DNA of 64,000 nucleotides from Sipunculus nudus (taxonomy: Eukaryota; Annelida; Sipuncula; Golfingiida; Sipunculidae). Shown piece after piece: positions 12,186 through 63,809 of the stretch. The stretch covers positions 71,123,916-71,187,915 of the forward strand of contig CM049315.1 of assembly GCA_026874595.1 (NCBI GenBank), written 5' to 3'. A model generated the notes under the pieces. That model searched no databases. It was not told the DNA's origin and saw only the letters and a list, made by a program, of their open reading frames with translations. The position numbers and the translations under genes are program-made. Each line of letters starts with the position of its first letter. Position 1 is the stretch's first letter.

Positions 12186-14615
12186 AGCTAATAGAATAAA
12201 GACGATAAACTCAGAAAAAGAAGTTAAGCTTAGAAAAAGAAGTGGAGCAGCTAGAAAGTAATATTGGAGAGTGTAATGGTATTAGTATTATTGAAAAATA
12301 CAAAGATTTAAAGTAGAAACTTGAAGAATGTTATGATCTGATAACTGAGGGCATAATTATTAGATCCAGAGCTCAGTGGCATGAGCAGGGTGAGCACAGC
12401 ACAAAATATTTCTTAAATCTTGAAAAGGGAAATCATGAAATGACAGTTTAAAAAAAATTATAGTAGGGTCTGTAGAAACAATGGGTCACAACAAAATAAT
12501 GTCGCATATTCATGAATATTATATGCAAAGATTTTCAAGATCTTCAGATGTCACCTCGCAGGATTGTGATAAGTTCTTGAAAGGTATTTATGGATACCAA
12601 AACTGACTGAGGATGAGTCTTTGAAGTGTGAAGGTAACATCACTGTCACAGAGGTACTTGAATCCTTAAAAAGTATGCCAAATAATAAAACACCAGGGAA
12701 TGATGGAATAACAAAATAATTTTACTTGAGTTTATTAAATGAAGTAGGTTTTGAAATGACTGCTTGTTTAAATAAAGAGTATCACTCAGGAGAATTATCA
12801 GAGAGCCAAATCCAAAGAGTTATTAAGCTTTTAGACTAGATGTGTCGGAACGACACGAATGCCCCAGCCTGGGGCAAATTAGAAACATTTGTTAAATTTT
12901 GTAAAAAAAATTTGAAGTTCAGGAGGTGTAATATGCTCAAAAGTAGGTCAACAAGGGCAAAATGCAAACTCGATCTATAACGAGTCATTATCAAGCAACA
13001 CACCAAAAATCAGGCCAGTATCTGCAGGCATTGTGAAAAAAAGTCCATACGTGCATTTCATAAAAATTTCTGTCTTTCATGAAATTTTCTATGTTCAGGA
13101 TCTGTCATATGGTCAAAAATAAATCAACTGGGACAAAACGCGAACTTGATCTGTAAGTGGTCATTATGCGCCAACAGACCAAACATTAGGCTAGTATCTG
13201 TTAGCATTGCATTGCAAAAATAGAATATTGGCAAAAGCTGATAATCAGTAATAAATTTAAATTGGAGAGGTATGTACCATGTTTCATAACAATTCACCAA
13301 ATGCTTCCTGAGATATAAGCTCCTAAGTTTTTTTCTATACTAAGCTCTGTGACCTTGAAAAGTAGAAATTTTCTAAGTTAAGGAGCCGTTAAATGGTCAA
13401 AAGTAGGTCAACTGGGACAAAACACGAACTCGATCTATATCTGGTCATTATCTACCTACACACCGAAAATCAGGCCAATATCTACAGGCATTGGGAAAAA
13501 AAAAAGTTTAGGAGCCGTAAAAAGGTCAAAAGTAGGTCAACTGGGACAAAATGGTAACTCGATCTGTAACTGGTCATTATCTGCCCACACACCAAAAATC
13601 AGGCCAAAATCTGCAGGCATTGCAGAAAAAAATCCGTACATGTGTATTTGTCATGAAAATTTCTTTTTTATGAAATTTTCAAAGTTTAGGAGCCATAAAA
13701 AGGTCAAAAGTAGGTCAACTGGGACAAAACGGAAACTCGATCTGTAACTGGTCATTATCTGCCCACACACCAAAAATCAGGCCAAAATCTGCAGGCATTG
13801 CAGAAAAAAATCTGTACATGTGTATTTGTCATGAAAATTTCTATTTTTTATGAAATTTTCAAAGTTTAGGAGCCATAAAATGGTTAAAAGTAGGTCAACT
13901 GGGACAAAACGGAAACTCGATCTGTAACTGGTCATTATCTGCCCACACACTAAAAATCAGGCCAAAATCTGCAGGCATTGCGAAAAAAAGTCCGTACATG
14001 TGTATTTGTCATGAAAATTTTTATTTTTCATGAAATTTTCAAAGTTTAGGAGCCGTAAAACTGTCAAAATAAGGGCAACTGGGACGAAACGCAAACTCGA
14101 TCTGTAACTGGTCATTATCTGCCCACACACCAAAAATCAGGCCAAAATCTGCAGGCATTGCGAAAAAAAGTCCGTACAATGTTTGATTTCGGAATGACGG
14201 AAGGACGAAAGGACGGACATGGGTAAAACTATATGCCCCGGCAACTTTGTGGCGGGGGCATAAAAAAACCGGGTAAGGACAAAAGATATATAGAATCCTG
14301 TAAACCAATAATCTTAATTAATGTTGACTGTAAGATGTTGTGTAAAATGTTAGTTTCAACATTGCGAAAGGCATTGCAAAAATTGGTCCACTCAGATCAG
14401 AATGCTTTTGTTCTAGGCCGCTATATCTGAAATTCAGTTTGCTTAATCAGTGATATGACGGAATATAGTGAAACAGAACAGCAAAATTCTTTTTGGAGCT
14501 GACTTTAAAGCAGCTTTTGACTCATTAGATCAGGTCTTCATGTTAAGTTTTCTAAAAAAAAACAAGCCTTTGGTCCAGTGATCATTAACTGGATAAAAAC
14601 TTAGCATAATAAGAT
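12186..14615 (+). pseudogene. L1/Tx1-like LINE ORF2 relic, split by a Helitron-like insertion
   Basis: Two blocks, 12186-12835 and 14266-14615, are one non-LTR reverse transcriptase broken by the element at 12836-14265. Before the break, after in-frame stops, are the linker motif R-S-R-A-Q-W-H-E-Q-G-E near 12360-12390 and the RT motif N-K-T-P-G-N-D-G near 12680-12705. The K-P-G-K-D motif spans the insertion point. After it come I-L-I-N-V-D and D-Q-N-A-F-V, then A-A-F-D-S near 14510 with stops and frame changes. The order and motifs match the L1-like LINE at 49.2-52.6 kb, which supplies an uninterrupted comparison. It is plainly dead. A GC-rich island begins right after its end. Confidence 0.85.
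12836..14265 (+). mobile_element. Helitron/Helentron-like non-autonomous element with satellite core, copy 1
   Basis: It starts CTAGAT, followed by a 5' hairpin (GTGTCG gaa CGACAC) and a subterminal block. It ends with a 14-bp imperfect hairpin (arms at 14232-14245 and 14249-14262, loop TTT) followed by TAAAA. The core holds tandem units of 177-180 bp, with 'gtaggtcaactgggac' blocks at about 13402, 13531, 13709 and 13889 and a degraded one at 14069. Subterminal inverted repeats plus terminal hairpins, with no TIR-type TSD, match Helentrons and the bivalve 'pearl'/HINE elements. It interrupts a LINE, so the ends are fixed to a few bases. Confidence 0.8.
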
Positions 14616-15391
14616 CAGATGGTTTTACACGGCGCCCCGCTCTTGAAAGCCAGCATGGAGGGCGGTCTTTCTCAGCTCACACGCAACGCAAGGCCGGGGA
14701 CCCTGCGGTCCTACCTCTACACCATCAGACTGTACACCGATTTCAAACAGTGCCGAGACCAGTCCTTGGAAGGCGGCGCGCAGTAGGGCCGGGTGGCGGC
14801 GCTGGTCAGCAACTGGTCGCGGGCAGCGCCAGGCAGGCCGGCCTGCGCAGGAAAGAGCAAGGTCAGGCTTTATGGTGCTGTTTCGTCCCGTTAGAAGTTT
14901 CCTTTGTCTTTGTCCAGGTCAGTGTGAAATGCCAGGCCAGACTGTCAACACATCATTGTGCCCCTCTTGTGTGGTTGCGCTTGGACAAAGCTGCGTCTCC
15001 GTGGATACTGGTTGCCGAAGACGTTATGACGGAATACAATTCGGCACTCACGTTGCTCCTTCCGTGTTTGTCTTGTCCTATTTCACAACCACACTAGTAC
15101 ACGCTGTGGTACCATCTCTCTCTGGGCTGCTGCTGACGCTTTGCTGCTTTTACATTGAAGAGCTCATAGCGACGCCCGAGGACTTGCACCAATACCTATC
15201 AAGCGACTTCGCCCACCGCATATACGCGGCCTTCGAGGTCGGCGCCTGCCCGGCACGGGAAATGCGGGACCAGCTTATGCTTTGTTTGTTAATCCACAAC
15301 GCCCAGCGGGCTGGGCCGCTACTGCATATGGCCACCGAGGACCAGGCCAGGGCCAGAACTCAGTGATAATGGTGATTAGTCACTTCGCGCT

Positions 15392-15413
15392 GGGGGGGGG
15401 GGGGGGGGGGGGG
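15392..15413 (+). repeat. Poly(G) tract, 22 G
   Basis: An uninterrupted run of 22 G lies in the presumed intron between recombinase blocks B and C. Confidence 0.95.
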
Positions 15414-15678
15414 TGTTCTAGGGCGTTTTCATGGATGTGGAAATACAACGTCTCGTTTCTTTTGCAGGTGGACCGGCATAAGACCGCCAGCAGTTACGGG
15501 TGCGCGGTGCTCGTGCTTGACCTTGCCTGGCCTGCTAGGTGGAGATGTGGCGGCGGCGGGTGCGGCTCACGCTGTTTCTTCCAACCTGCCGACACATGTT
15601 CCCCAGCGACAGGGGGCAGGCGATGATTGACTGTGAACTGCCGCGCGCCGTGCAGGCGGCGTGGAGCAGGAGAAGCTT

Positions 15679-15697
15679 GGGGGGGGGGGGGGGGGGG
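15679..15697 (+). repeat. Poly(G) tract, 19 G
   Basis: The run of 19 G begins directly after recombinase block C, near where a splice donor would be expected. Confidence 0.95.
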
Positions 15698-16584
15698 ATG
15701 CTCGATTACCAACTGACTAACATGTCCACGAAAACTTTAATATAACTACGCGCACTGGCTATAACATAGACAAAAGGACATAATATTTAAGCCGTTATTA
15801 ACCCTGCTCTACCAGTTTCGATGAACACATTCCTACCACTACCCTGCTGGTAGATGTCGCCATCAGCACAACACGAAATAATTCACTGTTTTACATGGTA
15901 ATACTACTAGAGTCACTAAAGCGGGTCTTCAGGGGTGATTAATGGTCTCTATCCTGGTATTTTTTATGAGACATTTACGGTTAATTTTGTACATTTGACA
16001 TGTGACTCTCCGTATCTGGGTGCCGATTACTGGCGGCTGCATCGTTTAAGTGACTTTTCTGTTTCTCCCGTTTGCAGCTGCACCAGATGGACCGAACCAA
16101 GGTCGAGCGGCACTTGCTGTCGAGGCACATGGAGCACGCTACCAGCACGGCCGACCAATATTATGATGTGACATACCGAATACGAAGCAGCGTCCAAAAG
16201 GGTGCGTATGGTCATGGAGCTTTTCGTTGTTGTCTTATTATCGTTTTTGTTACGGCGTGTTGATTTACGAATTATTCACCCCCCGCGCTTCATTGCTTTC
16301 TTTTAGAATGTGCTGTTCACATTGTTGTAATAATAAATGAACAAACTGGTGATGGAGTTGCCTTAAGAGGGTTAACTTGGAACGACAGGAGTACATTTCA
16401 GTGATGTGAATGCGAGTGGATTTGTTTTATTATTATTATTATTTTTAAGCACCAGTATTAATGAAAAGTATATACTTGCCCGTTCCTACCAATGGAAAGG
16501 GTATTCATGGTGAACGATCTTATTGGTCTCGAAACTGTATTGCAAGAACTTCATGTGGTTTATCTTATTGTGATAACTTGGAAG

Positions 16585-19499: not shown

Positions 19500-20990
19500 G
19501 TAATACCTGTTACCCTGCGAGCTCTTAGGGGCAGAGTACGAAGAGTTGTCAGAAAAAAAAAACTAGACGACCATAGGTCGAGCACTTGCCGGAAATGGTG
19601 TGGAAACAAAAAGTGAACGAGCAATGAAGACGTGGAAGAAAACAAGCTACAATTAAGCAGTCTGACCAACAATAGGCAAACATTGATATATTTTAGGGGT
19701 TCGACTGCAGCGCCCTCTAGCCACCATACAAAAAAAAAATGAAAAATAACTGTCTAGATATTATTGCAAGACATTAGAAGTACCAGTTTCAAAAGGATTC
19801 ATGCAAAAATGTAGCTTGTAGAATGCTATATGTAAGATGCAAGCACCAGGAAGCAGGTGAAACTGAAGACAACTGACAAACAGACAGACATACTGACAAG
19901 GTGCCACAAGGTTGAGACAAGATGACTTAACCCGAATATGGAGAAGACCCAGACGAAGTAAATATGCTACAATTTATGCAATAAAAATTTAGTTTTGGAG
20001 TTATGGCAAAAAATTATATGGTGAAATAGTGCCCCCTAGCAGACATTTCCAGAAATTAAAAAATCACATTCTAGATATTATAGCAAGACATAAGATGGAC
20101 CAGTTTCAGAAGGATTTCTGCAAAACTGAATCTTGTAGATTGCTATATGTAACATTCAAGCACCAGCAAGCAGGCAAACATCGAGGACAACTAACAAACA
20201 GACTGACATACTGACAAAGTGACACAAGGTTGAGACCAGATGACTTAACCAATTTATAAAAAAGTCCCAGGGGAAGAATGTTTGCTGTAATTTACATAAG
20301 AAAGATTTATAGTTTTGGAGATATGGCCGAAACATGATTTGTGAAAACTAGTTGACTGCAGCGCCCCCTAGCGGCCAGAACTAGAAAATGAAGAATCTTG
20401 TTCGAGATATTAGTGTAAGACATAACATTTACCAGTTTCAAAAGGATTCCTTCAAAACTGTGCCCGGAAGAATGGTATATGTAAGACACAAGAACCAGCA
20501 AGCAGGCGAATTCGAGGACAACTATACTAACAAAGTAACACAAGAATAAGACCACCTGACTTGCTCAGGTTATGGGATAAAATAAGCTATAGTTTCAGTA
20601 ATGGAGAATTATTGAGGACAACTGACAAACAGACAGTCATACTAACAAGGTGACAAAAGCTTGAGACAGGTTGACTATACCAATTGATGAAAAAGACCAA
20701 GAGAAAATAAGCCATAGTTTCTGTAATGGAGAATTAAAGTTATGGAGATATAAATAATTAACAAATAATATGTTAAGGAGGTTCATGTGCACCGCCCTTA
20801 GCGGCCATATTCGGATAAATGAAAAACTTATTTCGAGATATCAGTAAAAGACATTACATGTACAAGTTTCAAAAGGATTCCTTCCAAGCTTTGGCCTGTA
20901 GAATGCTATATAGGCGAAGAACCAGCAAGGAGGCGAATTTGATCACAACTAACGACAAACAGTCAGACATACTGAAAAAGTGACACAAAA
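19500..20990 (+). repeat. Tandem array, ~320-bp unit with a GCGCCCCCTAGCGGCC mark
   Basis: Four diverged units carry the mark near 19711, 20029, 20360 and 20793. Spacing is about 318, 331 and 433 bp, the last enlarged by an internal duplication. Each unit also has 'cagtttcaaaaggattc' and 'caccagcaagcaggc' blocks and a 'gacatactgacaa' block. No open frame continues across units. This is probably the satellite core of a non-autonomous element. Its ends were not found. Confidence 0.8.
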
Positions 20991-36014: not shown

Positions 36015-36910
36015 TTTCAAATACTGCACTATCGTCAACTCACAGATATCTGTATGTGCGACCTGTGTTTTCAAACACGGATTTTGCCCGCTGGAAGCAG
36101 TTCTGCGCATACGCATAAATTAGTGAATTAGTGGTTGTCTGGGTCGGCACAAGTGAAGCTTTGAAGACCTTCCAAACACACTCCGCTATGTCAACCGAAA
36201 AAGAACGTTGAATATCCTACACAAGTCGGGCTTCTCAGAGAAATTTGTCACCCGGGTTGCACCCTTTCACAATTTTTTAACAAAAGTTTATTAAAAACTT
36301 CGCAATTTTTTTTTGTTACCGCAAACACTCTAGACCACGAAAAAACTTCCAGTCTATATGGTATAAGGTTTATACTGAATGTAACAATGACATTTAGTTA
36401 TCACAGCAATACCATGATGTTCGCTGACTTTGTAAACTATGCGTTTTGCTTGTGAAACTGACCTAGGCGAGATGTTGTATTGCTTCGCCGATCAATAAAT
36501 TTAAGCAACATTAAGATAATGTTTCACATACACTGAAAGCAGAACAAAAAGACATGCAGGTGGGGCAACCTACAATACCAGTCCACTTATACAATTAATA
36601 TGTTGTGTACAACCATGCAAGTATTTAAGGGGTTACGTTAGTGAAATTTGTGCTTGAAATTACTTTTGTTCAGCACAAAACTGCTTGTTTTTTTCAAATA
36701 GAGCACAGTGACAATATATCGCTGTTCAATATGTCCTTGCATTTTTCCTAATTATAATTTGTTCGTGATCACAAGGCTGATGCCAACTTCCATTCCTCTT
36801 GTAACTAGTGTCAATATACCCCAAAAGTCGGGGTGCTATGAAGATGCACATTAGCACTAATCATAAAGTATGCATTACATTATCCAAAATCACATTTAAA
36901 CTTGCAACAG
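36015..36910. other. Spacer, no feature recognised
   Basis: Nothing recognised beyond short frames. Confidence 0.4.
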
Positions 36911-37734: not shown

Positions 37735-39395
37735 TGTTAACAGGATTTGGGATTTTGCTCAATTTATTTATTTATTATCTGCATTTACTTAGCTCTTTTA
37801 GGAAAAAAGCTTTAAAAACTTTTAAAATCCCAGGATCATCTTTCTCAAGTTTGTTTGAATGGTTCGTGTTTGGTGATTTTTGAACGAGTTAAGGAATTCT
37901 AGTTTAATCTGGCCAAAAAAAAAAAACATACAACTAGATGTGTCGGTACGACACGAGTGCCCCCGCCTGGGGAAAATTAGAAACATTTGTAAAATTTTTC
38001 AAGTTCAGGAGGTGTCGTATGGTCAAAAGTAGGTCAACAAGGGCAAAATGCAAACTTGATCTTTAATGGGTCATTATCAAGCAACACACCAAAAATCATG
38101 CCAGTATATGCAGGCATTGTGAAAAAAAGTCTTTCATGTTTAGGAGCCGTAAAACAATCAAAAGTAGGTCAAGCGGGACGAAACGCGAACTCGATCTGTA
38201 ACTGTCATTATCTGCCCACACATTAAAAAATCAGTGTGGTATCTGCAGGCATTGAGGAAAAAAAGTCAGTTCATATGCGTTTGTTATGAAAATTTCCATT
38301 TCTCATGAAACTTTCTATGTTCAGGAGCAGTCAAATGATCAAAAGTAGGTCAACTGGGACAAAACAAGAACTCGATCTGTAACTGGTCATTATCTGCCTA
38401 CACACCAAAAATCCGGCCCGTATCTGCAGGCACTGCGAAAAAAAAGTCAATACATGTGCATTTTTTAAAGAAATTTTCTATGTTAGAGCACCGTCAAACG
38501 GTCAAAAGTAGGTCAACTGGGACAAAACGTGAACTCGATCTGTAACTGGTCATTATCTGCCCACACACCAGAAATCAGGCCAATATCTGCAGGTATTGCT
38601 AAGAAAAGTCTGTACAAGTGTATTTGTCATGAAAATTTATATTTTACATGAAATTTTCTATGTTCAGGAGCCATAAAACAGTCGAAAGTAGGTCAACTTG
38701 GACGAAACACAAACTCGATCTGTAACTGGTCATTAGCTGCCAACACACCAAAAATCAGGCCAATATCTGCAGGCATTGCGAAAAAAAAGTCCGTACATGT
38801 GTATTTGTCATGAAATTTCATATTTTTCATGAAATTTTTTATGTTCAGGAGCCGTAAAACGGTCAAAAGTAGGTCAACTGGGACAAATTGCAAACTCGAT
38901 CTGTAACTGGTCATTATCTGCCTACACACCAAAAATCAGGCCAATATCTGCTGGCATTGCGAAAAAAAGTCCGTACATGTATATTTGTCATGAAAATTTC
39001 TATTTTTCATGAAATTTTCTAAGTTTAGGAGCCGTAAAAAGGTCAAAAGTAGGTCAACTGGGACGAAACGCCAACTTGATCTGTAACTGGTCTATATCTG
39101 CCCACACACCAAAAATCAGGCCAATATCTGCAGGCATTGCGAAAAAAAGTCCGTACAACTGTTTGATTTCGGAATGACGGACATGGGTAAAACTATATGC
39201 CCTGGCCACTTTGTGGCGGGGGCATAAAAATCACAAACTCAGGAACGGCGTGAGCTGTCATCACCAAATTTTATGCCAGTGTTGGTCACACGAGTCATTC
39301 CGCCACCTGCATTGGCCTTTTTTCGACAAGGTCCTTGGTTTTCAGTACTTTTAACCTATAATGCTATAATTTTTCTCAGGAACAGCAGGGGCTAG
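37735..39395 (+). repeat. Repeat family E copy, interrupted by a Helitron-like element
   Basis: The outer parts, 37735-37933 and 39231-39395, align with 55940-56300. Shared blocks include 'tctcaagtttgtttgaatgg', 'gatttttgaacgagtta'-like sequence, 'catcaccaaattttatgcca' and 'gccacctgcattggcc'. In the 56-kb copy the two parts are joined through a short A-rich stretch. Here they are separated by the 1.3-kb element at 37934-39230. Confidence 0.75.
37934..39230 (+). mobile_element. Helitron/Helentron-like non-autonomous element with satellite core, copy 2
   Basis: It starts CTAGAT, then a GTGTCG gta CGACAC hairpin and TGCCCCCGCC, the reverse complement of GGCGGGGGCA near its 3' end. The 3' hairpin pairs 13 of 14 positions around a TTT loop, then TAAAA. 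The core has tandem units of ~180 bp with the same 'gtaggtcaactgggac' block as copy 1. It sits in an A-rich site inside repeat family E. It has no open frame for a Rep/helicase, so it depends on a partner elsewhere. Confidence 0.8.
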
Positions 39396-46149: not shown

Positions 46150-46600
46150 ATCAGACACACCAACATTTATTTGAACAGTTTGGTAGCGGCCAGTAAGGAA
46201 TACTTGAGCCTCTCAAGAGCTTCTGACTTGATGCCGCACACATGCTGTAACCTATCTAAGAAGATTCGGTTGTTCAAAGCTTCAAAGGCCGCAGAAAAGT
46301 CTAAAAGAACCAAAACTACTGGCAAACCCTCATCAAGCTTATTCATGATGTCCGTCTGGACCTTGAGAAGGGCTGTCTCTGTGGAATGAAAGACTCGGTA
46401 GGAAGACTGAAAGCGGTAGCACATCTCAGCTTCAGCAAGATGCTTTTGTAGTTGGTCTGAGAAAGCTTTCTCGATCAATTTGGCGATAAAACTGAAATTT
46501 GATACAGGCCTTTATCAAGACTCTGTTTCTCAATGAGAGGATAGTACCGCGCATGCTTGAAGGCCGTTGGAAAAGTTGATGTTGAGAACGAGGAATTGAC
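46150..46600 (-). pseudogene. CR1/L2-like LINE fragment (RT fingers and palm start)
   Basis: The minus strand gives Y-P-L-I-E-K-Q-S-L-D, then, in a new frame, I-E-K-A-F-S-D-Q-L, H-S-T-E-T-A-L-L-K-V and V-L-V-L-L-D-F-S-A-A-F-E. These are the ordered fingers and first-Asp palm motifs of Jockey-superfamily reverse transcriptases. The expected D-T-V-D-H after the palm motif has become A-L-N-N, and the frame ends soon after. It is an isolated dead fragment. Confidence 0.85.
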
Positions 46601-50339: not shown

Positions 50340-52560
50340 TTAATATAATCTCTTGAAACGTAAGAGGAATGAGGAAGTATGAAAAGAGAAAAAAGATTTT
50401 TAATTGGTTTCACAAACATGGATGTGTTCAAGGAGTTGGTTTCATTCAAGAGTCTCATAGTAAAATAGAAGATATAGATAGCTGGTCCCGCCAATGGAGA
50501 GGTGATGTGTACTTTTCACATGGAACAAATTCCAGTAAAGGAGTTTCAATTATTGTTGGTGAACACTTGGAATTTAAATATAAAGATGTGATTGTAGACA
50601 AAGAAGGAAGATATATATTATTGAAATGTTTTATTCAAGATTGTTCCTTCCTGTTATGTAATATATATGCTCCAAACACAGAGACAGAGCAACTGCAATT
50701 TTATGAAAATTTCAATACTGTAATAAGAGAAAATTGTCTCGATGATGACTTGAAAGTGGTCATAGGTGGAGATTTTAATGTTTGTTTAATTCAAATTGAT
50801 GCTGATTGAGGTCAAGCACTAATAAAAAAGAGAGTTGTATCTAAAATTAATTTAATTATCAATAAATTTGCTCTCATTGAGTTAGAAATCCAAATTAAAA
50901 AAAAATACATGGAGAACATTTAAACCTTTGACACAGAGGCGTTTAGATTATTTTCTTGTAACAAATAATATGCAGTCTTATGTAAAAAGTACAGATATTA
51001 TTGTTTCAGTGGATACTGATCATTCTGTTATTGTTATGAAGCTTTTATTTCAAGAAATAAGTTTTGCCAAGGCTACTGGAAATTTAACAATTCGTTATTG
51101 AAAGATAAACAGTATATAGAAGACTTAAAGAAATGTATAATAGAATGGAAAGCAGAGATAAAGAATAGTGATCAAGCAAAAAGATGGGAATATACAAAAT
51201 ACAAAATAAGAGGATTTACAATTAGATATTCAAAAATAAAATCAAGAAAAAGAAAGAAAGATCTTGAACAATTGGAAAGAAAATTAAAAGAATTAGAACA
51301 TAGATTGGGTCACCAGTCAAATGAATCAATTTTAAAGGATTATATAGAAACAAAACGTCTGGAAGAAAATTACAACTACATTACAGAAGGGATAATAATT
51401 CGCTCTAGGGCACAGTGGCGAGAGGAAGGGGAGAGAAATAGCACTTATACTCTCTCAATGTAGAAAAAAAGAAACAAAAGAAAATCACGTCAGAAAATTA
51501 ATAATTGATGAAGCAAAGTGATATACTTCATGAACTTCTATACTATGAAGTTCAAAAGGTCTATAAATGTTAGTCATCCTGAATGTGAAGAGTATTTAAA
51601 AGATCTTATTATCCAAAATCTATCAAATGAACAGTCTTCATTATGTGACGTCCCCTTATCCTTTCCAGAAGCTTATAAAATTGTAAAATTAATGCCATCA
51701 AATAAAACACCTGGTAATGATGGATTGACCAAAGAATTTTATGAATATTTTTTCCCAGTGATAGGAGCAGATTTAGTAGATTCTATAAATTACAGTTTTA
51801 TAGAAGGTCAATTGTCACCTAGTCAACGACAAGCAATAATTACTTTACTCGAGAAACCAGGAAAAGATACACATTACATTAAGTCATGGCGACCCATTAG
51901 CCTAATTAATGTTGATTTTAAAATACTAAGTAAAGCACTTGTTGAGAGAATGAAAAATATATTACCTAAGATTATACCTAAAGAACAAAGTGCTTTTATC
52001 AAAGGGAGATTTATTGGTGAACCAATAAGGCTAATTCAAGATGTCATGTATTATTGTAAACAAAAAGATGTATCTGGTATTGTAATTGCTGCAGACTTTG
52101 CCGCAGCCTTTGACTCAGTTGGTCACACATTTATGTACTGTGTATTAAGGAAAATTGGATTTGGTGATTGTGTTATTTCATGGATAAAGACTTTGTATAC
52201 TAATTTAGAGAGTGCAATTATCAATAAAGTAGTGACTAGTCATTATTTTTCAGTAGGCACTCGCACTCTCAATTATCAATAATGTAGTGACTAGTCATTA
52301 TTTTTCAGTAGGCACCCGCCAAGGTGATCCTATGGCATGTTATCTGTTTATGTTAGTATTGGAAGTTTTAGCACAACGAATTCGTACAAATAAAAATATT
52401 AGAGGCATTTATACTTTGTCATCCATAGAGCATAAAATGTGTATGTTTGCTGATGATTCGACTTTCTTTCTTCAAGATGTAAATTCTTTTAATGAGTTAG
52501 TGAAAGTTTTAAACTGTTTTTCACATTACCTGCAAGGGCCTTTGTTAAAAAGTAAAATCA
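50340..52560 (+). pseudogene. L1-like LINE ORF2, endonuclease and RT palm
   Basis: The endonuclease part has N-V-R-G, Q-E-S-H, N-I-Y-A-P-N and G-G-D-F-N, then R-R-L-D-Y-F and T-D-H-S. A TGA at 50354 replaces the Trp expected before N-V-R-G. After 51098 come the linker motif R-S-R-A-Q-W-R-E-E-G-E, then N-K-T-P-G-N-D-G, L-L-E-K-P-G-K-D, R-P-I-S-L-I-N-V-D, A-A-D-F-A-A-A-F-D and, after a 55-bp duplication, G-D-P-M-A and F-A-D-D near 52446. Several frameshifts exist. The ORF stops within the RT thumb at about 52560. The missing part lies inverted at 47950-49190. Confidence 0.9.
52214..52322 (+). repeat. 55-bp tandem duplication inside the LINE RT
   Basis: The block 'agtgactagtcattattttt' is present at 52231 and 52286. 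The second copy differs by few bases. The 55-bp length shifts the reading frame between catalytic motifs. Confidence 0.9.
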
Positions 52561-55599: not shown

Positions 55600-57010
55600 A
55601 TCTATAGGTTTCTTCGCCTATTGGTAGGCGAGCTATATTGCAAGATTGGGTTCTGGAATGAAAATTTTGGCTTAAAGTGTATCCAGAATGTTTTTAATGA
55701 TATTGTTTCTGTGACTGTGACCTTTGACCTCATGCCCCAAAAATCAAAACATACTTGCTTTATTGATGTGTTATTAGCGAACCTGTGAGCTTATGCGATG
55801 GTGCGGCGTCGTGTGTCGTCTGTACGTTAACCATAGCTATCTGAAAACGGCAGGAGCTAGCATCACCAAATTTTTTGCAAATAATCAGTCATCCAAAAAA
55901 ACTATATCGGATTTTATTTTTTTTAACTGATTTTTCTTAGATTTTATAGGGAAAAAGCTGAAAAAGCTTTAAAAATCTTCTTCTCCGAAACTGTCCAGCG
56001 AATTTTTCCAATATTTCACAGAAATGATTCCTAAAACAATTTTTCTCAAATTTGTATGAATGGTTCCAGTTTGGAGATTTTTGGCCGAGTTACAGGAGGT
56101 TGAACTTTGTTAACTGTGCAAAAAAAGCATATTAAAATTTAAATCTCAGAAACGGCTGGAGCTATCATCACCAAATTTTATGCCAATGTTGGTCACATAG
56201 GTCATATCTGAAATCGAGGTATTGGTGGCGCCACCTGCATTGGCCGGTCACATAGGTCATATCTGAAATCGAGGTATTGGTGGCGCCACCTGCATTGGCC
56301 TTTTTTTTACAGGGGTCATCAGTGCCCATATCATACTGACGGCTACAAAAACTTCTTCTCTGAAACCGTATGGCCAAATTCTTTAATATCGCACAGGAAT
56401 GATCCTATGGTAGTGCGTTCTGAAGTTTGTTCAAATGGTCTCAGTTCAGTGATTTTTGGCTAAGTTATGGGAAGCTGAATTTAGTCATATGCCATTACAG
56501 CCCATTTTAGCTCAGTGGCTACAAAGAACGTCTTCTCAAAAACTACTGGGCCAAATTCTTAAATTTCACACATTGATTATCCTCAAATGTTGATAATTCA
56601 ATTTTGCTCAAAAAGTATTGGTTCAGTGCTTTTTGGCTGAGTTACGGGAAGCTGAACTGAGCCAGTTTGCTGTATCTTCCTATATGAGTTATAAACTTGC
56701 GAAACGTTTTTCGACTGATGCCACTGAAGCCAGTTTCTTAAATATTTTTCAAGAATAATTCCTACAATAATTCTTATAATAATTGTCATTAATGGTTCAA
56801 CATGAATGATTTTTGGCTGAATTATGGAGATTGAATTGAGTCATTTTACTATATATGGTAGTTGTGTTATGCAGTTACATCGAGCCTGGCACCAGTTTAT
56901 CAGCATCTATTTCATCATGCCACTAGACATTTAGATTTCAGGTTATATTTGGTTAATATTGACAAGAAAGGTTTTTAAAAGCTTTTAAAAAAATTCAGAT
57001 TTATGGTTTA
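55600..57010 (+). repeat. Repeat family E with ~180-bp tandem units
   Basis: The block around 'tttttggctgagttatggga' or close variants occurs near 56077, 56450, 56628 and 56808. Spacing is about 375 (two units), 178 and 180 bp. Each unit also has 'ccaaattctt'-like and 'caattttgctcaa'-like blocks. A hairpin with a TCGCCTA arm and a TAGGCGA arm lies at about 55611-55630. A 55-bp perfect tandem duplication spans 56191-56300. Non-coding throughout. Confidence 0.75.
56191..56300 (+). repeat. 55-bp perfect tandem duplication
   Basis: Copies at 56191-56245 and 56246-56300 are identical. Each contains the GGTGGCGCCACC palindrome, at 56224 and 56279. Confidence 0.95.
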
Positions 57011-57289
57011 AGTTATTCATCATACCAGGCAATGTTACAATCATGTAAATTCAGCTCTCTGTGGCTATATAAAGAAAGCTGTACAGGAATTATAAATTAT
57101 TGGTATCCCTACTCAACTTAATTTAAGAATTTGCCATCAATGATATATATCTGTATTTTAATTTTGCATTCAGTATGCATCCGTAATAGTTTTACATATA
57201 TTCCTGATTTCTTTTTTATATAAAGTCAGCTGAAAAGCATTTTGTATTGGGAAAACAAATTTCAAAGTTTTTTCAAGTAGGGTCCACTT

Positions 57290-57690
57290 CTGTGTACAGA
57301 TGGCAGCACTTGGTTTACCATTGGCAGATAGCCAGTGCCTTGATGTTGGCCATTAGCCAGTGCCTTGATGTTGGCCATTAGCCAAGATGATGTCAGCTCT
57401 ATAAATAGCTTTGGTAGAGTGCCAGGATTGGAAGAAGTGGAGCCAGGTATAGATCAAGAGTTCACTCAGTGCTGTAGCTGCATTCTATTTATAGCTTTGG
57501 CAGACTGCTCACTGCACCATATTTGGCACCAAAGTTCAGCCTGAATCTATTTATAGCTTTGGCAGAGTGCCAACTGTGTCAGATTATGCAACAGGTCAAG
57601 AGTTCACTCAGTACTGCCAGGTACAGGTCAAAAGTTCACCCAGTCTAGCCAGGTGCAGGTCAAGAGTTCACTCAGTGCAGTAGCTTGAGG
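57290..57690 (+). repeat. Interspersed short repeat blocks
   Basis: 'ctatttatagctttggcaga'-like blocks recur at about 57400, 57487 and 57547. 'aggtcaagagttcactcagt' blocks recur at about 57450, 57593, 57655 and (with variation) 57625. A 25-bp perfect tandem copy lies at 57331-57380. Confidence 0.8.
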
Positions 57691-57829
57691 CAGCAATTTG
57701 TCACAGGTCACTCAGGGGCAACTGCCTTACTCAACTTAGCCTTGTCAGCCCAGTGCATCAAACTCTGGGGAAGTTTGATGTATTGGACTGATACCTGTCT
57801 ATGCGTCTTTGATGGTATTCTCATTTACA

Positions 57830-59440
57830 ATACAGGTGGCGCCACATACATTGACTTTTGCAGTGTATGCGCCTGCTTATTTCTACAGAGTTATTTGATA
57901 CATCAGCCTAAAATTGGGTATGTTTATACTTATTGGTTAGCTTTATAGTGTACAAGACTGGTGGCGCCACCTACAATAATTTTTGCACAGTGCATGTCCC
58001 TGCTTATTTCACAGGAGGGGTTTGACATATCAGTCTAACATTGGGCATATGTATATATCTCTTTGTTGTATATGGGACTGGTGGTGCCAGCTACAATCAT
58101 TGTATCCGCCAAAACAGAGTTTTGAGGATACTATGTTTTCAGTCGGACACAGACGCTGTCGCCATCGCCGCATAGGTTTTCGGAGAACTTGTCCATAACC
58201 ACTAGGCAGAATTTTTTAAAAAATAGGAATTATGATCGGTAAAATGTGAACTGCTGCGCCTCATTTTTGGTTGACCTCTGACCTTTCCTCTCTGCCCAGC
58301 GTCCATTTGAGCATCTGTTTCCACACATAAACCCACATATCTCGGGAACCGTTTGACCGATAAGGCTAAGGTTTTTATCACAAATGTAGCCCTTGGAAAG
58401 ATTTATAACATACACTAAAATGGTGGCGCCACCTGAAAACATTTTTGCACATCATCTGCCTTGGGATAAAAACAATGATATCTCTGCATTGGTTGGACTT
58501 ATCCACCTGAAATTTTGCATGTGTATTCATCCTGAACAGTTTCTTGATTTTGTAACAGGTGGCGCCACCTACATTCACGTTTAAGCTGCAGACATCCAAG
58601 CTCATATCTCGGGAACCGTTTAACCAGTTGGGGCAAAATTCTGCATGTGTATAGATCTCCCATAGCTCTTTATCATACGCAAAACTGGTGATGCCACCTG
58701 CAACCATTTTTGCACAGCGTCCGTCTGTTTGTCTGCTTGGGCTAAAATCACTCATATCTCAGTAGGAGTTTGACTTATCTGCCTAAAATTTTGCATGTTT
58801 ATACATCCTGGATAGCTTTCTGGATATTTTGGTAGGTGGCGCCACCTACATTTATGTATATGCTGCAGATATTCAGGCTTATATCTCAGGACTGGTTTGA
58901 TATATCCCCCTAATTTTGCATGTGTATAGGTCTCGCATATCTCTTAATCATAAACAAAACTGGTGGTGCCACCTGCAATCATTTTTGCACAGTATCCGTC
59001 TGTTTGTTTGCCGTAGCATAAAATCACTCATGTCTCAGCAGTGGTTTGACATATCTGCCTAAAATTTTGAAGGTTTATACATCTTGGATAACTTTCTGGA
59101 TTTTGTGGCAGGTGGCGCCACCTAAATTATGTATAATGCTGCAGACATTTAAGCTTATATTTCAGAACTGGTAAGACATATCCCCCTGAAATTTTGCATG
59201 TGTATAGATTTCACATAGATCTTAATCATACACAAAATTGGTGGCGCCACCTGTCACCATTTTTGCACAGCGTCCGTCTGTTTTTCTGCCGTAGGCTAAA
59301 ATCTCAGTAGTGGTTTGACTTATCTGCCTAAAACTTTGCATGTTTATACATCTTGAACAGCTTTCTGGATTTTGTGGTAGGTGGCGCAACCTACATAGAC
59401 ATTTCGGCTGCAGACATCCAGGCTATTATGCAACACACCT
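57830..59440 (+). repeat. ~275-bp higher-order tandem array built from two ~138-bp halves
   Basis: Exact GGTGGCGCCACC palindromes lie at 57960, 58422, 58558, 58835, 59111 and 59240, with one-base variants at 57835, 58080, 58685, 58962 and 59381. From 58558 on, spacing alternates between about 128 and 148 bp. The odd and even half-units have different flanks but both carry 'cctaaaattttgcatgt' and 'tatctc-ggaac'-like blocks. So the repeat period is about 275 bp, made of two related halves. Confidence 0.85.
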
Positions 59441-59967
59441 CACTCTATTTACCCTTGCCACTCAATCCATGCCTCACTTCACCTTTCCTCCTTTGATTTT
59501 GGCGGATACACAGTCGCTTGTTGACAACCCATATTCTAATGTTTGTGTTGTGTGCACCCATGCCAGAGTTGCAGCAGTGATGTTTGTTTGTTTCTTGTTC
59601 TAAGTGTTTAGTACTTGCATTGTTAATATACATGTTACACATGTTCTTCAAAAGTAATGGTCCAGCATTGAAGCATTCCTAGGCTTCTCATGAGAGGTTT
59701 ATCTGTCGTCATCACCTTACCAACAGCGTCATACTGTTGGTTTGTCCATCATAAATATGGTCAAACACTTGTCGAAAAGGGAGACAAACATCGTTAGCCT
59801 CACACACGTCGTTACTACAATAACTGCTGGTTCTAAATGTTTCCAACTTCCCATTGGGTCTGTGTATGACCCAGTTAAATGATTAGTCATGCTCCTCTTG
59901 TGATCTGAATCATCTCTCAAAGAAATCATCCTAAAGAAAACTTTAAAAACAGGTCATCAGAGGCCAC
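59441..59967. other. Spacer, no feature recognised
   Basis: Short frames on both strands only. Confidence 0.4.
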
Positions 59968-60175
59968 GGACACTAAAACAAGACCATCTGTGACACTGAA
60001 ACTTACAAGGTATGATTGTACATTTCAGTGCCCTGGATGCTCTATGAGCCACGTGACACTGATGACTCCCATGCAACCCGGAATATTTTCAATCGTTTTG
60101 TTTCCTTTTTGTCAAGTACACCTTATTTAAAAATGTTTTAAATATGTTTTCGCAAAAACGTCATGGGAGAAAATT
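59968..60175 (+). repeat. Dispersed repeat A copy
   Basis: It has 'acaagaccatctgtgacact' and then the core 'attgtacatttcagtgcc'. The arm 'gccacgtgacactgatgac' and the block 'cgtcatgggagaaaatta' follow. It aligns with 24685-24880 and, in inverse, with 1090-1410. Confidence 0.8.
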
Positions 60176-60871
60176 AATAATGACACAGTTTTGAAAGCTT
60201 GAATTGTCAGCGTCTTAAAAGTAGAAAAAGGACTTAATTTTATAAATCATCATGTGCGGTAAAGATGGATGGAATAAAAGTGTAAATACAGGAGGAAAGT
60301 TAAAGCATAAACAGTTTACTTTCTGAATGAGTCCACACAGTTCCACCAAAATATGCAAAAAGCTTCGGACATCGGTGGATAAGTATGGCGTAATGCAAAG
60401 ATTTATAGGATATATACAGATCAACGGTTTTCCTCACCTGGTTTGTTAATATGGTTTGTTAATATGTCTGAAGAGACATTTAAGCAAAACATACTAGTAT
60501 GATTCATTTGTTACTGTGTTCACTCCTGCCTTTGTTCAATGAAAACACTACTGTTGCTTCCAATTTTTATACATGGATTATAACCGGGTTGTTGCCAAAA
60601 CTAGGAAGCTACTCTTTTTTTATTTCCATAAAAACCCAAAAAGTCGGGCACATTTTTTTATTATTTCTAGATAACACCGTCTGCTGCGAGGGGTGTTACG
60701 ACCCATAATGTAATAACCGGCCCATAATGTAATAACGGCTCATATTGTAATAAAAACGACCCATAATGTAATAATAGCCCATAATGTAATAAAAACGGCC
60801 CATATTGTAATAACCATACCCTGCCCATATTGTTATAAAATCGCAAGTGGGTAAAACGGCCCATATTGTAA

Positions 60872-62165
60872 CTAGATATTTCTTGGCACCGCAGGTGCCA
60901 TAGTATCGCCAGACAATTATTCCCCCCCCCCCCCCCCCTTTAAGAATAGGCCCCCCATCTTCAGCAACAATTAATATCAGACCACACTCATAGAAAAGGT
61001 CATTCTCATAGAAAAGGTCATGATCCAAATTTCAATATACATCATCCCCTAACCCATGTCTATGTATATGCAAGAAATCTGTCCATTAGTTTTTAACTTA
61101 TAATGCTCACAGTACTGTTAAGTGGCAATGATGGGGTATTAAACGGCACGAAAACAAGTAAAAGAATAACAGGTGGCACCACCTGTTTCCCGTACATGAC
61201 AACACTATCCAAGATCTTCGTTCAAGTTGATTTTTGGACCAATCAATGCATCCCTTATTGAGAAATTAATGATTTTGTGTGATTTTCACCATATATGGCA
61301 ATATTCAAGGTCAAGGCCACTCATTGGAAAGGTCATGACCCCTATTCAAATAAACATTATCCTATAACCCATATCCATGTATATGCATAATATGAAAGAA
61401 ATTTGTCCATTAGTTTTTGACTTGTAATGCTCACAGTACTGATAAATGGCAAAGATGGGGTATTAAACGGCACAAAACAAGTAAAAGAATAACAGGTGGC
61501 GCCACCTGTTTCCGGTACATAACAATACTTTCCAAGATCTTCGAACATGTTGATTTTGGACCAATGCATGCATCCCTTATTGAGATATTAATGATTTTGT
61601 GTAATTTTCACCATATATGGCAATATTCAAGGTCAAGGCCACTCTAATAGGAAAAGTCATGACCCCAATTTATATATACATTATCCCATAACCCATGTCT
61701 ATGTATATGCATAATATGAAAGAAATCTGTCCATTAGTTTTTGACTTATAATGCTCACAGTACTGTCAAGTAGCAATTTTGGGGATATTAAACGGCATGA
61801 AAACAAGTTAAGAATAATAGGTGGCGCCACCAGTTTCTGGAACATGACAACCCTATCCATGATCTTCGATCAACTTGATTTTGGGATCAATCCATGCAAG
61901 TTTTCTTGAGATATTTAAGAATTTGTGTGATTTTCCCCAAAATTGAACCTATTCAAGGTCAAGGTCACTCTCCTAGTGGAGGTCATGACCTCATTTTAAA
62001 TAGGCGTCGTCCTGTCACCCATATCTATACATATACCAAGTTTGGTAAAGATCCGTGAAATATTTTTTGAGTTATTGTGTCCAAAAGAAATCTCTGCGGC
62101 GGCGGCGGCGGCGCGACCCTGCCTAAACCATAGTATCTCCAGACTATGTCTGGCGATACAATAAA
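60872..62165 (+). mobile_element. Second Helitron/Helentron-like family, nested, satellite core of ~320 bp
   Basis: It starts CTAGAT followed by a hairpin (TGGCACC gca GGTGCCA) and the subterminal block TATCGCCAGACA. It ends with a hairpin (TATCTCCAGAC tat GTCTGGCGATA) and then AATAAAA. The TATCGCCAGAC block near the 5' end is the inverse of GTCTGGCGATA near the 3' end. The core has about 3.5 tandem units of 316-325 bp, with GGTGGCGCCACC at 61495 and 61820 and a one-base variant at 61172. A 17-C tract lies at 60922-60938. It has the same architecture as 12836-14265 with a different sequence. Confidence 0.75.
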
Positions 62166-62536
62166 ATCGCAGGTGGGTAAAACGGCCAATAATTTTATAA
62201 ATCAAATTTCATGCAAATTAACTTAGACAATTCGAATATTGACTTTTCGTGACACGAATGTGTAGGTGAACATACAAGTATGAAAAAAAACTGGATTACA
62301 TAACTCTGGAGAAAAACAACACTTTTAATTCACAACAGTCTGTTTCACGTGGTGCGACCCGATCATCAGGTGAATGTATATACGGCTGTAGTATTTTTGG
62401 CTTCTGAAAAAAAGCCCAACAAAAACACGTATTTAATGAATAATTTTGGTTTGCTGAAAAAACCTTAATATTTCTTTTTGCTATATTTCTGGGATTTATT
62501 TAAGCGCCTGGGTCCATTAAACCTAATACACTTGTG

Positions 62537-62589
<53 letters not shown>

Positions 62590-63290
62590 CCAAAATGTAA
62601 ATATTTTGTCAATTTTAACAGATAAAATATACAAAACTCATTATCGATACATTTTAATGTATTTTAATTCTTTTTAAAATATAAATGAAACTTTAAATTT
62701 AAAAGCGTTTAGCTCAATGTATCATAGAGAATATTTTACACGATCTCTCGAAACCTCCCGAGATTTAGAATTATAAATGTAGGTACTGCTGCAATTTTTT
62801 GGTGCTCATATATGCATTGGTTAAGATGTCTTAGGTCAATATGTATAACACATCGCATAGATTAAGAGCTTTCAACACATGTTTTTGAAGTTAAAACCTG
62901 GATGTGTCATTCGTGCGATTTAAGAGTTTACAATTTAATTTTATTTAAAAATTAGCCCAAACAACATAACAACAGTTTGAAAATGCCGGTTTCTGTGTTC
63001 TAGAGGTAGAGCATAGGGCTCAGAGCGGGGAGATTCAGGGGCGTAGCCAGGTTTGAGGGAGGCAGGGGGCCATGTTAGTGGCGGATCCAGAAATTCGAAA
63101 GGGATGGGGGCAGGCGCTAATATGCATATAAAACTGTTAAATATACGTGTGTATATATATATATATATAATTATTATTATTAAAATAATAATATTATTAT
63201 TATATTTTTATTATACGTTATATTTGAGTGTATGAAAATATGATTTTTTTTTATTCAGTTGTGAACCATGGTTTCATTAAGGTTAGTAAC
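62166..63290. other. Interior of the TIR element right of the nested insertion
   Basis: AT-rich. An (AT)n run lies at about 62534-62587. The stretch 62995-63120 has 'ggggcgtagccag' and 'gtggcggatccag' blocks, typical of short invertebrate repeats, and a weak tRNA-like stretch near 63002. No open frame of interest. Confidence 0.5.
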
Positions 63291-63796
63291 AGGTTCATAT
63301 ATAAATATGTTATTACAATATGGGCCGATTTGCCCACTTCCAGTTTTAATACAATATGGGTAGGGTATGATTATTACAATAACGGTCGTTTTTATTACAA
63401 TATGGGCCGTTATTACAATATGGGCCGTTTTTTATTACATTATGGGCCTATATTACAGTATGGGCCAGTTTTATTACAATATGGGCAGGGTATGATTTTT
63501 ACATTATGTGTCGTTTTTATTACAATATGGGCCGTTATTACATTATGGGCCGGTTATTACATTATGGGTCGTAACAAGGGGTTTTACCTTTGATATTATT
63601 ATAGTAGCCAGCTTTCGGTTGGTGACTACAGTCGTATCTGTATGAAAAGCCATTTAAGTTCAACATTTTAGATATCGTAAACAATATGGCAAAATAAAAA
63701 CCCAAAGATTTCCTTTGAATTTCTGATTCGCGGCCTCTCTATTTCGTAATGCTATGGCCCCACAAATCTTTGGAACAGAGCGCTACATAATTTTAA

Positions 63797-63809
63797 GGGG
63801 GGGGGGGGG
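63797..63809 (+). repeat. Poly(G) tract, 13 G
   Basis: Uninterrupted run near the right edge of the window. The rest of 63582-64000 holds nothing I recognise. Confidence 0.95.

Follow-up and report, generated by a model that had tools for sequence, protein, structure and literature searches.

In a 64,000-nucleotide stretch of contig CM049315.1 from Sipunculus nudus (hereafter the window), the short palindrome GGTGGCGCCACC recurs in three satellite-like repeat families, one around 56 kb (family E), one around 58 kb and one forming the core of a nested element around 61 kb. All ten exact copies listed in the first-pass annotation of this DNA, at 56224, 56279, 57960, 58422, 58558, 58835, 59111, 59240, 61495 and 61820, were confirmed, and four sites with a single mismatch were located at 57835, 58962, 59380 and 61172. 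After scanning all 64 kb, the whole set of these 14 sites was found inside the repeats, within the interval 56.2-61.8 kb, against a mean of 0.02 and a maximum of 1 for matches with 0-1 mismatches in 100 dinucleotide shuffles of the window. Two sites with two mismatches, 58080 and 58687, are in register with the other palindromes.

The array sizes proposed beforehand, ~275 bp and ~320 bp, agree well with the output of Tandem Repeats Finder (TRF), which gave a period of 276 bp in 3.4 copies at 58455-59396 and of 324 bp in 3.2 copies at 60996-62028. The 276-bp unit itself, however, is composed of two half-units of ~121-149 bp, termed A and B, and each of them holds a palindrome with 0-2 changes. 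The palindrome was present at this level in 8/8 successive half-units at 58.4-59.4 kb and in all three half-units at 57.8-58.1 kb, which sit just outside the element carrying the former (el58, Table 1), and it was also found in 3/3 units of the 61-kb array, which is carried by a second element (el61). For family E, the proposal that the palindrome belongs to a ~180-bp repeat held in part: two exact sites exist, but the palindrome is no regular part of the 180-bp repeat, since apart from one 55-bp duplication no copy spaced at ~177-180 bp carries a palindrome site within 3 mismatches. Since one half of this duplication holds 56224 and the other 56279, family E contributes only one independent palindrome.

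Table 1. Palindrome-bearing repeats and their carrier elements in the window
Feature	Position	Strand	Details
Related module start without palindrome	55839..55882	+	blastn, 39/45 columns identical to the family E module, E 2e-9
Family E module copy with palindrome 56224-56235	56129..56235	+	anchored score 17.2
Perfect 55-bp tandem duplication doubling the family E palindrome (56224, 56279)	56191..56300	+	TRF, 2.0 copies, 100%
Three half-units, palindromes 57835 (1 change), 57960, 58080 (2 changes)	57753..58100	+	nhmmer 57753-57881, 57867-58004, 57993-58116
HINE-type element el58, eight half-units	58101..59510	+	inverted ends TGTATCCGCCAAAA 58101-58114 / 59497-59510
Palindromes of el58: 58422, 58558, 58687 (2 changes), 58835, 58962 (1 change), 59111, 59240, 59380 (1 change)	58422..59391	+	
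HINE-type element el61, inverted, 324-bp core array; outer limits approximate	60880..62163	-	inverted ends GTATCGCCAGACA 60903-60915 / 62147-62159
Palindromes of el61: 61172-61183 (1 change), 61495-61506, 61820-61831	61172..61831	-	module to their right in plus-strand coordinates

Homology and conservation of the palindrome-bearing units

For detection of homology outside the palindrome, an nhmmer profile was constructed from 11 half-units after masking of the palindrome columns, and was searched against the window together with its reversed copy. The three half-units at 57753..58100 were among those used to build the profile, so that their own nhmmer matches (Table 1) are not independent. The masked profile matched the 61-kb core in register on the minus strand, at 61590-61499 (E 0.0055) and 61267-61176 (E 0.037), while the best match in the reversed copy had E 0.17 and one match in the window outside the three families had E 0.066. 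With the palindrome kept in the profile, family E was matched at 56129-56241 (E 1e-6). When the 90 bp upstream of each palindrome were scored after anchoring, with the palindrome itself left out of the score, family E gave 17.2 on the plus strand and the three core units gave 24.7, 28.9 and 17.0 on the minus strand, all four being above the maximum of 15.3 reached by 2000 random anchors (a non-uniform null, half drawn from 62200-63800 and half from 200-55800). A separate control by dinucleotide shuffling agrees with the anchor null, the observed score being reached in 0/400 shuffles for each of the four segments. On the downstream side of the palindrome, the core scored 0.0-0.8, a level matched by at least 909 of the 2000 random anchors, whereas the sequence following the second copy of the family E palindrome scored 11.7 (reached by 3/2000 anchors) and that following the first copy scored 4.6 (148/2000).

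Judging from these comparisons, the three families descend from one module, which extends from near ATATCTC up to and including the palindrome and is inverted in the core. Several observations weigh against this view: with the masked, unanchored profile the third core unit appeared only at E 47 and family E only at E 3.6, that is, neither was found; the kinship of family E was recovered solely by the anchored test; and the related module start at 55839-55882 is followed by no palindrome within 3 mismatches before 56224. Because a module of ~90 bp is common to all three families, the palindrome was inherited and not acquired three times. Three independent acquisitions were considered and ruled out, as the module is shared by the families even without the palindrome. 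The first-pass annotation had described the sequence surrounding the palindrome as different among the families, and had reasoned that families aligning from end to end would have the palindrome by simple inheritance. Both statements turned out to be half right: no end-to-end alignment at good identity exists, but the ~90 bp beside the palindrome are homologous, and the palindrome was inherited with them.

A further palindrome copy with two mismatches lies at 36559-36570, followed by TACAAT as in some half-units, and is possibly a relic. Its downstream side was equalled or beaten by 128/2000 random anchors on the plus strand and by 12/2000 on the minus strand, and its upstream side by 1314/2000 and 900/2000, respectively. 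This site was excluded from all counts.

The level of conservation was then compared between the palindrome and its flanks. When the 11 half-units were aligned freely, pairwise identity averaged 0.90 for the palindrome and 0.45 for the flanks, and 0/136 flank windows of 12 columns were as conserved as the palindrome. Between A and B half-units the corresponding values were 0.92 and 0.39 (0/130 flank windows), within A half-units 0.96 and 0.72 (0/81), and within the four B half-units 0.90 and 0.60, where 5/129 flank windows equalled the palindrome. For the whole set of 15 units, from which the exact duplicate at 56279 and the possible relic at 36559 had been dropped, changed letters amounted to 8/180 in the palindrome and 571/1700 in the flanks; for these counts and for the rate models below, an alignment column was kept if at least 9 of the 15 units had a letter in it, which left 127 columns. 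Four of the eight changes in the palindrome are C to T transitions at the central CpG. Using a tree from the flanks only, a two-rate Jukes-Cantor (JC) model gained 23.8 log units, with a rate of 0.169 for the palindrome and of 1.087 for the flanks. In a JC scan the palindrome was the best of 29 stepped windows, tied with itself shifted by one base; separate Hasegawa-Kishino-Yano (HKY) models, in which composition and transition rate were freed, gave a gain of 30.6 log units; and under a gamma model the palindrome was the slowest of 116 windows of 12 columns. By these estimates the palindrome has evolved at about one sixth of the rate of the surrounding unit. The first-pass annotation would have discarded selection for a 12-mer no better conserved than its flanks, whereas the 12-mer is in fact far better conserved. 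Since 14/14 successive units of the contiguous arrays carry the palindrome with 0-2 changes, its retention there is not an effect of ascertainment.

This contrast could in principle arise without selection, if shared descent and a small sample of non-independent units made a GC-rich word look conserved. In line with this explanation, the sample consists of 15 mutually related units from one 64-kb stretch, joined by a weakly supported tree with low bootstrap values, the contrast is weak within the B subfamily and small within A half-units, and the 15-unit alignments, in which the palindrome columns were fixed, may exaggerate the divergence of the flanks; the free alignment, however, gives the same picture. 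We consider the absence of selection unlikely, given the gain of 23.8 log units for a single extra parameter on a tree made from the flanks only, and given that both arrays are depleted in CpG (observed/expected 0.53 and 0.40, against 0.67 for the window), where an unconstrained CpG should decay fast, yet 11/15 units keep the central CpG. Selection on the palindrome, as suggested in the first-pass annotation, stays the better reading of its slow rate, with the reservations that the contrast is weaker within the B subfamily and that the palindrome was inherited by the three families.

The main rival to a protein-binding role is a recombination site, at which units would break and join, new sequences would be spliced on, and short conversion tracts would keep the palindrome uniform. 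Between the core and the other arrays, homology goes no further than the palindrome's downstream edge (scores of 0.0-0.8 there against 17.0-28.9 upstream), el58 starts 9 bp past the palindrome at 58080-58091, and the 55-bp duplication of family E ends 10 bp past its palindrome; in addition, 13/16 junctions of the clam satellite phBglII400 map to a 12-bp palindrome according to the text of PMC5139131. The array of el58, however, overshoots the palindrome of its last unit by 38 bp (59429) instead of ending there, and the homology of family E seems to continue past the duplication, as indicated by the score of 11.7 after the second copy. Moreover, conversion should carry the flanks along, yet A and B units have different flanks next to the palindrome, and the same text describes junctions that are scattered in DTHS3 and not significantly clustered in BIV160/Cg170. 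On balance, we regard a recombination site as rather unlikely.

HINE-type carrier elements

The elements el58 and el61 are related to each other and have the anatomy of HINEs (non-autonomous Helentrons), except that no 3' palindrome was found in el58. For comparison, the oyster HINE is laid out as a left subterminal repeat, a complementary repeat and a microsatellite, followed by tandem repeats, a right subterminal repeat and a palindrome (text of PMC7492417). Perfect subterminal inverted repeats bound both elements, el58 with 14 bp and el61 with 13 bp (~11-12 bp in HINEs). At the 5' ends, the subterminal repeat and its complementary repeat form hairpins with 3-nt loops, in keeping with the spacing of 1-12 bp in HINEs, and with folding energies of -8.0 kcal/mol (z -5.98) for el58 and -9.1 kcal/mol (z -7.13, minus strand) for el61. 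The hairpin is followed by a GC-rich stretch, GTCGCCATCGCC or CGCCGCCGCC, which aligns between the two elements and in which no TRF array was detected at score 50. The central tandem array is present in both, and the 3' subterminal repeat of el61 is followed by the palindrome GGCACCTGCGGTGCC (z -3.13), whereas none was found at the 3' end of el58 (z 0.44), this HINE feature being absent there as tested. Over ~80 bp, the left ends of el58 and el61 align with a score of 40, whereas 1000 shuffles gave at most 24. In el58 and el61 alike, the module reads from left end to right end, and as its direction thus agrees with that of its carrier, the inverted core simply reflects the orientation of el61. 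For family E, a hairpin lies near 55610, but no convincing 3' partner was found for it, the candidates being three 12-letter matches with 2 mismatches each.

The surroundings of el61 show two further repeats. Inverted minisatellite arms (CCCATAATGTAATAA and its complement; 82-130 nt, 85-96% complementary) at 60694-60881 and 63303-63576 flank the region holding el61, a nested insertion. A direct repeat, AAAATCGCARGTGGGTAAAACGGCC, was recognized by eye on either side of el61, at the approximate coordinates 60836-60868 and 62160-62190.

Elsewhere in the window, a different tandem family of 180 bp occupies two distant places, 13503-14178 and 38307-39157, the likeness of the two consensus sequences being judged by eye. 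A GC-rich island at 14501-15750 (54-62% per 250-bp step over 14751-15750, in a window mostly near 36% GC) contains long overlapping open frames, one of which was scanned and gave no Pfam match. A reverse transcriptase fragment was identified at 51512-52279 (RVT_1, E 5.6e-16), which we read as being of the non-long-terminal-repeat type, together with a second, weak match below the family cut-off on the minus strand at 46170-46511.

Putative function of the palindrome

Constraint on the palindrome extends beyond the 12-mer on one side. Downstream, T follows in 15/15 units and then a purine in 15/15, while upstream A or T is found (7:8). Such an asymmetric constraint, confined to the downstream side, is as expected for duplex DNA in the bound state. 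The letters outside the 12-mer, as tested for six positions, were complementary no more than when redealt, and none of the eight changes, which fall in six units, is compensated at the mirror position by inspection; both results argue against a selected hairpin. Four copies were folded, one of each kind: a core unit gave a stem of 8 bp (-6.8 kcal/mol, z -3.71) and an A unit one of 7 bp (-5.5 kcal/mol, z -2.95), whereas a B unit (z -1.16) and the family E copy (z 0.66) fold no better than shuffles. Taken together, the flanking constraint and the folds fit a protein-bound duplex better than a single-strand hairpin, and the palindrome with the following T and purine is probably bound by a protein as duplex DNA, a protein-binding site being one of the roles suggested in the first-pass annotation.

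A single-strand role would make the palindrome an internal copy of the 3' palindrome of Helentrons, read by the Rep/helicase during rolling-circle replication and giving rise to the tandem units. The 3' palindrome of el61 does adjoin its 3' subterminal repeat, two of the four tested units fold better than shuffles, and 5/8 changes fall in the four central letters of the would-be loop, though four of them are CpG transitions. We nevertheless regard this role as quite unlikely, because B and E units do not share the folding, the letters of the would-be loop have been kept as well as those of the arms once CpG decay is set aside, and the flanking arms pair no more than redealt letters. A structured RNA or ribozyme was also considered and rejected: all 11 Rfam matches with E<=1 were microRNA models on AT repeats below the gathering threshold, and none lay at the palindromes.

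Among duplex-binding proteins, CTCF was considered as a specific case, in which the elements would disperse clustered CTCF sites. The word AGGTGGCGC occurs 16 times in the window (7 and 9 by strand), always in these repeats, and 0 times in 20 shuffles. On the minus strand of the module, YA precedes the palindrome in 15/15 units, and the YAGRKGGC core of the CTCF consensus, as given in the text of PMC6746451, is intact in 12/15, as in CCASYAGRKGGCRS, being broken at 57835, 58080 and 59380. CTCF orthologues exist in molluscs (text of PMC10658182). Several points count against CTCF: the CCA box (CCASYAGRKGGC) upstream of the core is absent in 16/16 sites on both strands, the sites agree with the consensus at 9-12 of 15 positions, 12/15 at best, a better match of 14/15 lies outside these repeats (CCGCTAGGGGGCGCT, minus strand, 20360-20374), and CTCF would have no use for the palindrome's second half. 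The word AGGTGGCGC is also present in an unrelated rice target (PMC7883824). CTCF is a lead and not a result, and we hold it to be a doubtful candidate for the binder. Other conceivable readings of the palindrome would be an E-box (Snail/ZEB), E2F, SMAD or T-box site.

Starting from the observed homology of the module, the slow rate of the palindrome in 15 units and the HINE anatomy of two carriers, we propose the following explanation. An ancestral module of ~90 bp ending in GGTGGCGCCACC would have become the monomer of tandem arrays inside HINE-type non-autonomous Helentron-like elements, and the arrays would since have diverged, with A and B half-units becoming distinct, and would have moved along with the elements carrying them, in both orientations. 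Purifying selection on the element lineages may have preserved the palindrome, which extends to WGGTGGCGCCACCTR when read in module direction, since copies with several intact sites would spread better than others. As double-stranded DNA it would be bound by a protein, most likely a DNA-binding protein of the host, and the bound sites would be clustered at spacings of ~121-149 bp (or ~324 bp). We give about even credence to this explanation as a whole, namely an inherited module, HINE carriers and a selected putative protein-binding palindrome. A wider view, to which we give little credence at present, is that Helentron-type elements spread clusters of palindromic sites for a host chromatin or transcription factor, that their satellite arrays serve as ready-made regulatory or boundary elements, and that lineages survive by the sites they keep.

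Conserved segments in diverging Helitron-borne satellites of bivalves have already been published (PMC7492417, PMC5139131), but we have met no settled account of what keeps them in the texts of these reports. The case described here belongs to this known sort of conserved segment, with an unusually clean box. A direct binding test would be easy, since this box is a short and perfect palindrome with sharp limits and occurs in related elements of both orientations. If a host factor does bind it, rolling-circle elements would disperse regulatory sites in tandem clusters.

Comparison with known systems

The word GGTGGCGCCACC is not claimed to be undescribed. In a literature search of texts, with figures and supplements outside its reach, the sole match was an unrelated paper on a bacterial chitinase. 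Searching contig collections not meant for animals, we found the tandem GGTGGCGCCACC pattern in 0 viral contigs, where two single-copy patterns were likewise absent, and once among genome contigs, in an actinobacterial contig of 71% GC, where GGTGGCGCCACC lies within a short GC-rich repeat read by eye as protein-coding.

The closest likeness in anatomy is to the HINE of Crassostrea gigas (Cg_HINE), which, as described in the text of PMC7492417, has a 5' subterminal repeat with a nearby complementary repeat, a GC-rich simple stretch, a central array and a matching 3' repeat; the 3' palindrome of Cg_HINE has its counterpart here in el61 only. The monomers of Cg_HINE are likewise diverged around two common conserved segments (clusters CL1/2/10/13 and CL4), whereas the monomers described here consist of two half-units of 121-149 bp, or of 324 bp, and have a perfect palindrome of 12 bp as their conserved box. 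The word GGCGCC is absent from the main text of PMC7492417, figures and supplements being outside that search.

The satellite phBglII400 of Ruditapes philippinarum shares a monomer of two halves, a 12-bp palindrome and palindrome-linked junctions with the arrays analyzed here, although no HINE frame is reported in the text of PMC5139131 and, as the palindrome letters are not printed there, the likeness is one of description. Also by description, DTC84 and other pearl elements of bivalves, cited in the same text, carry short tandem arrays with a conserved palindrome near the repeat junction. In comparison with CTCF sites, the likeness lies in the core AGGTGGC(GC) (text of PMC6746451), the difference being that the present box is fully palindromic and has no CCA box. 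For the proposed dispersal of binding sites, the nearest parallel is the ISX helitron of Drosophila miranda, which likewise disperses a short motif for the binding of a host protein complex; that binding was demonstrated by chromatin immunoprecipitation (text of PMC4384637), while in S. nudus the binding is suggested by conservation alone.

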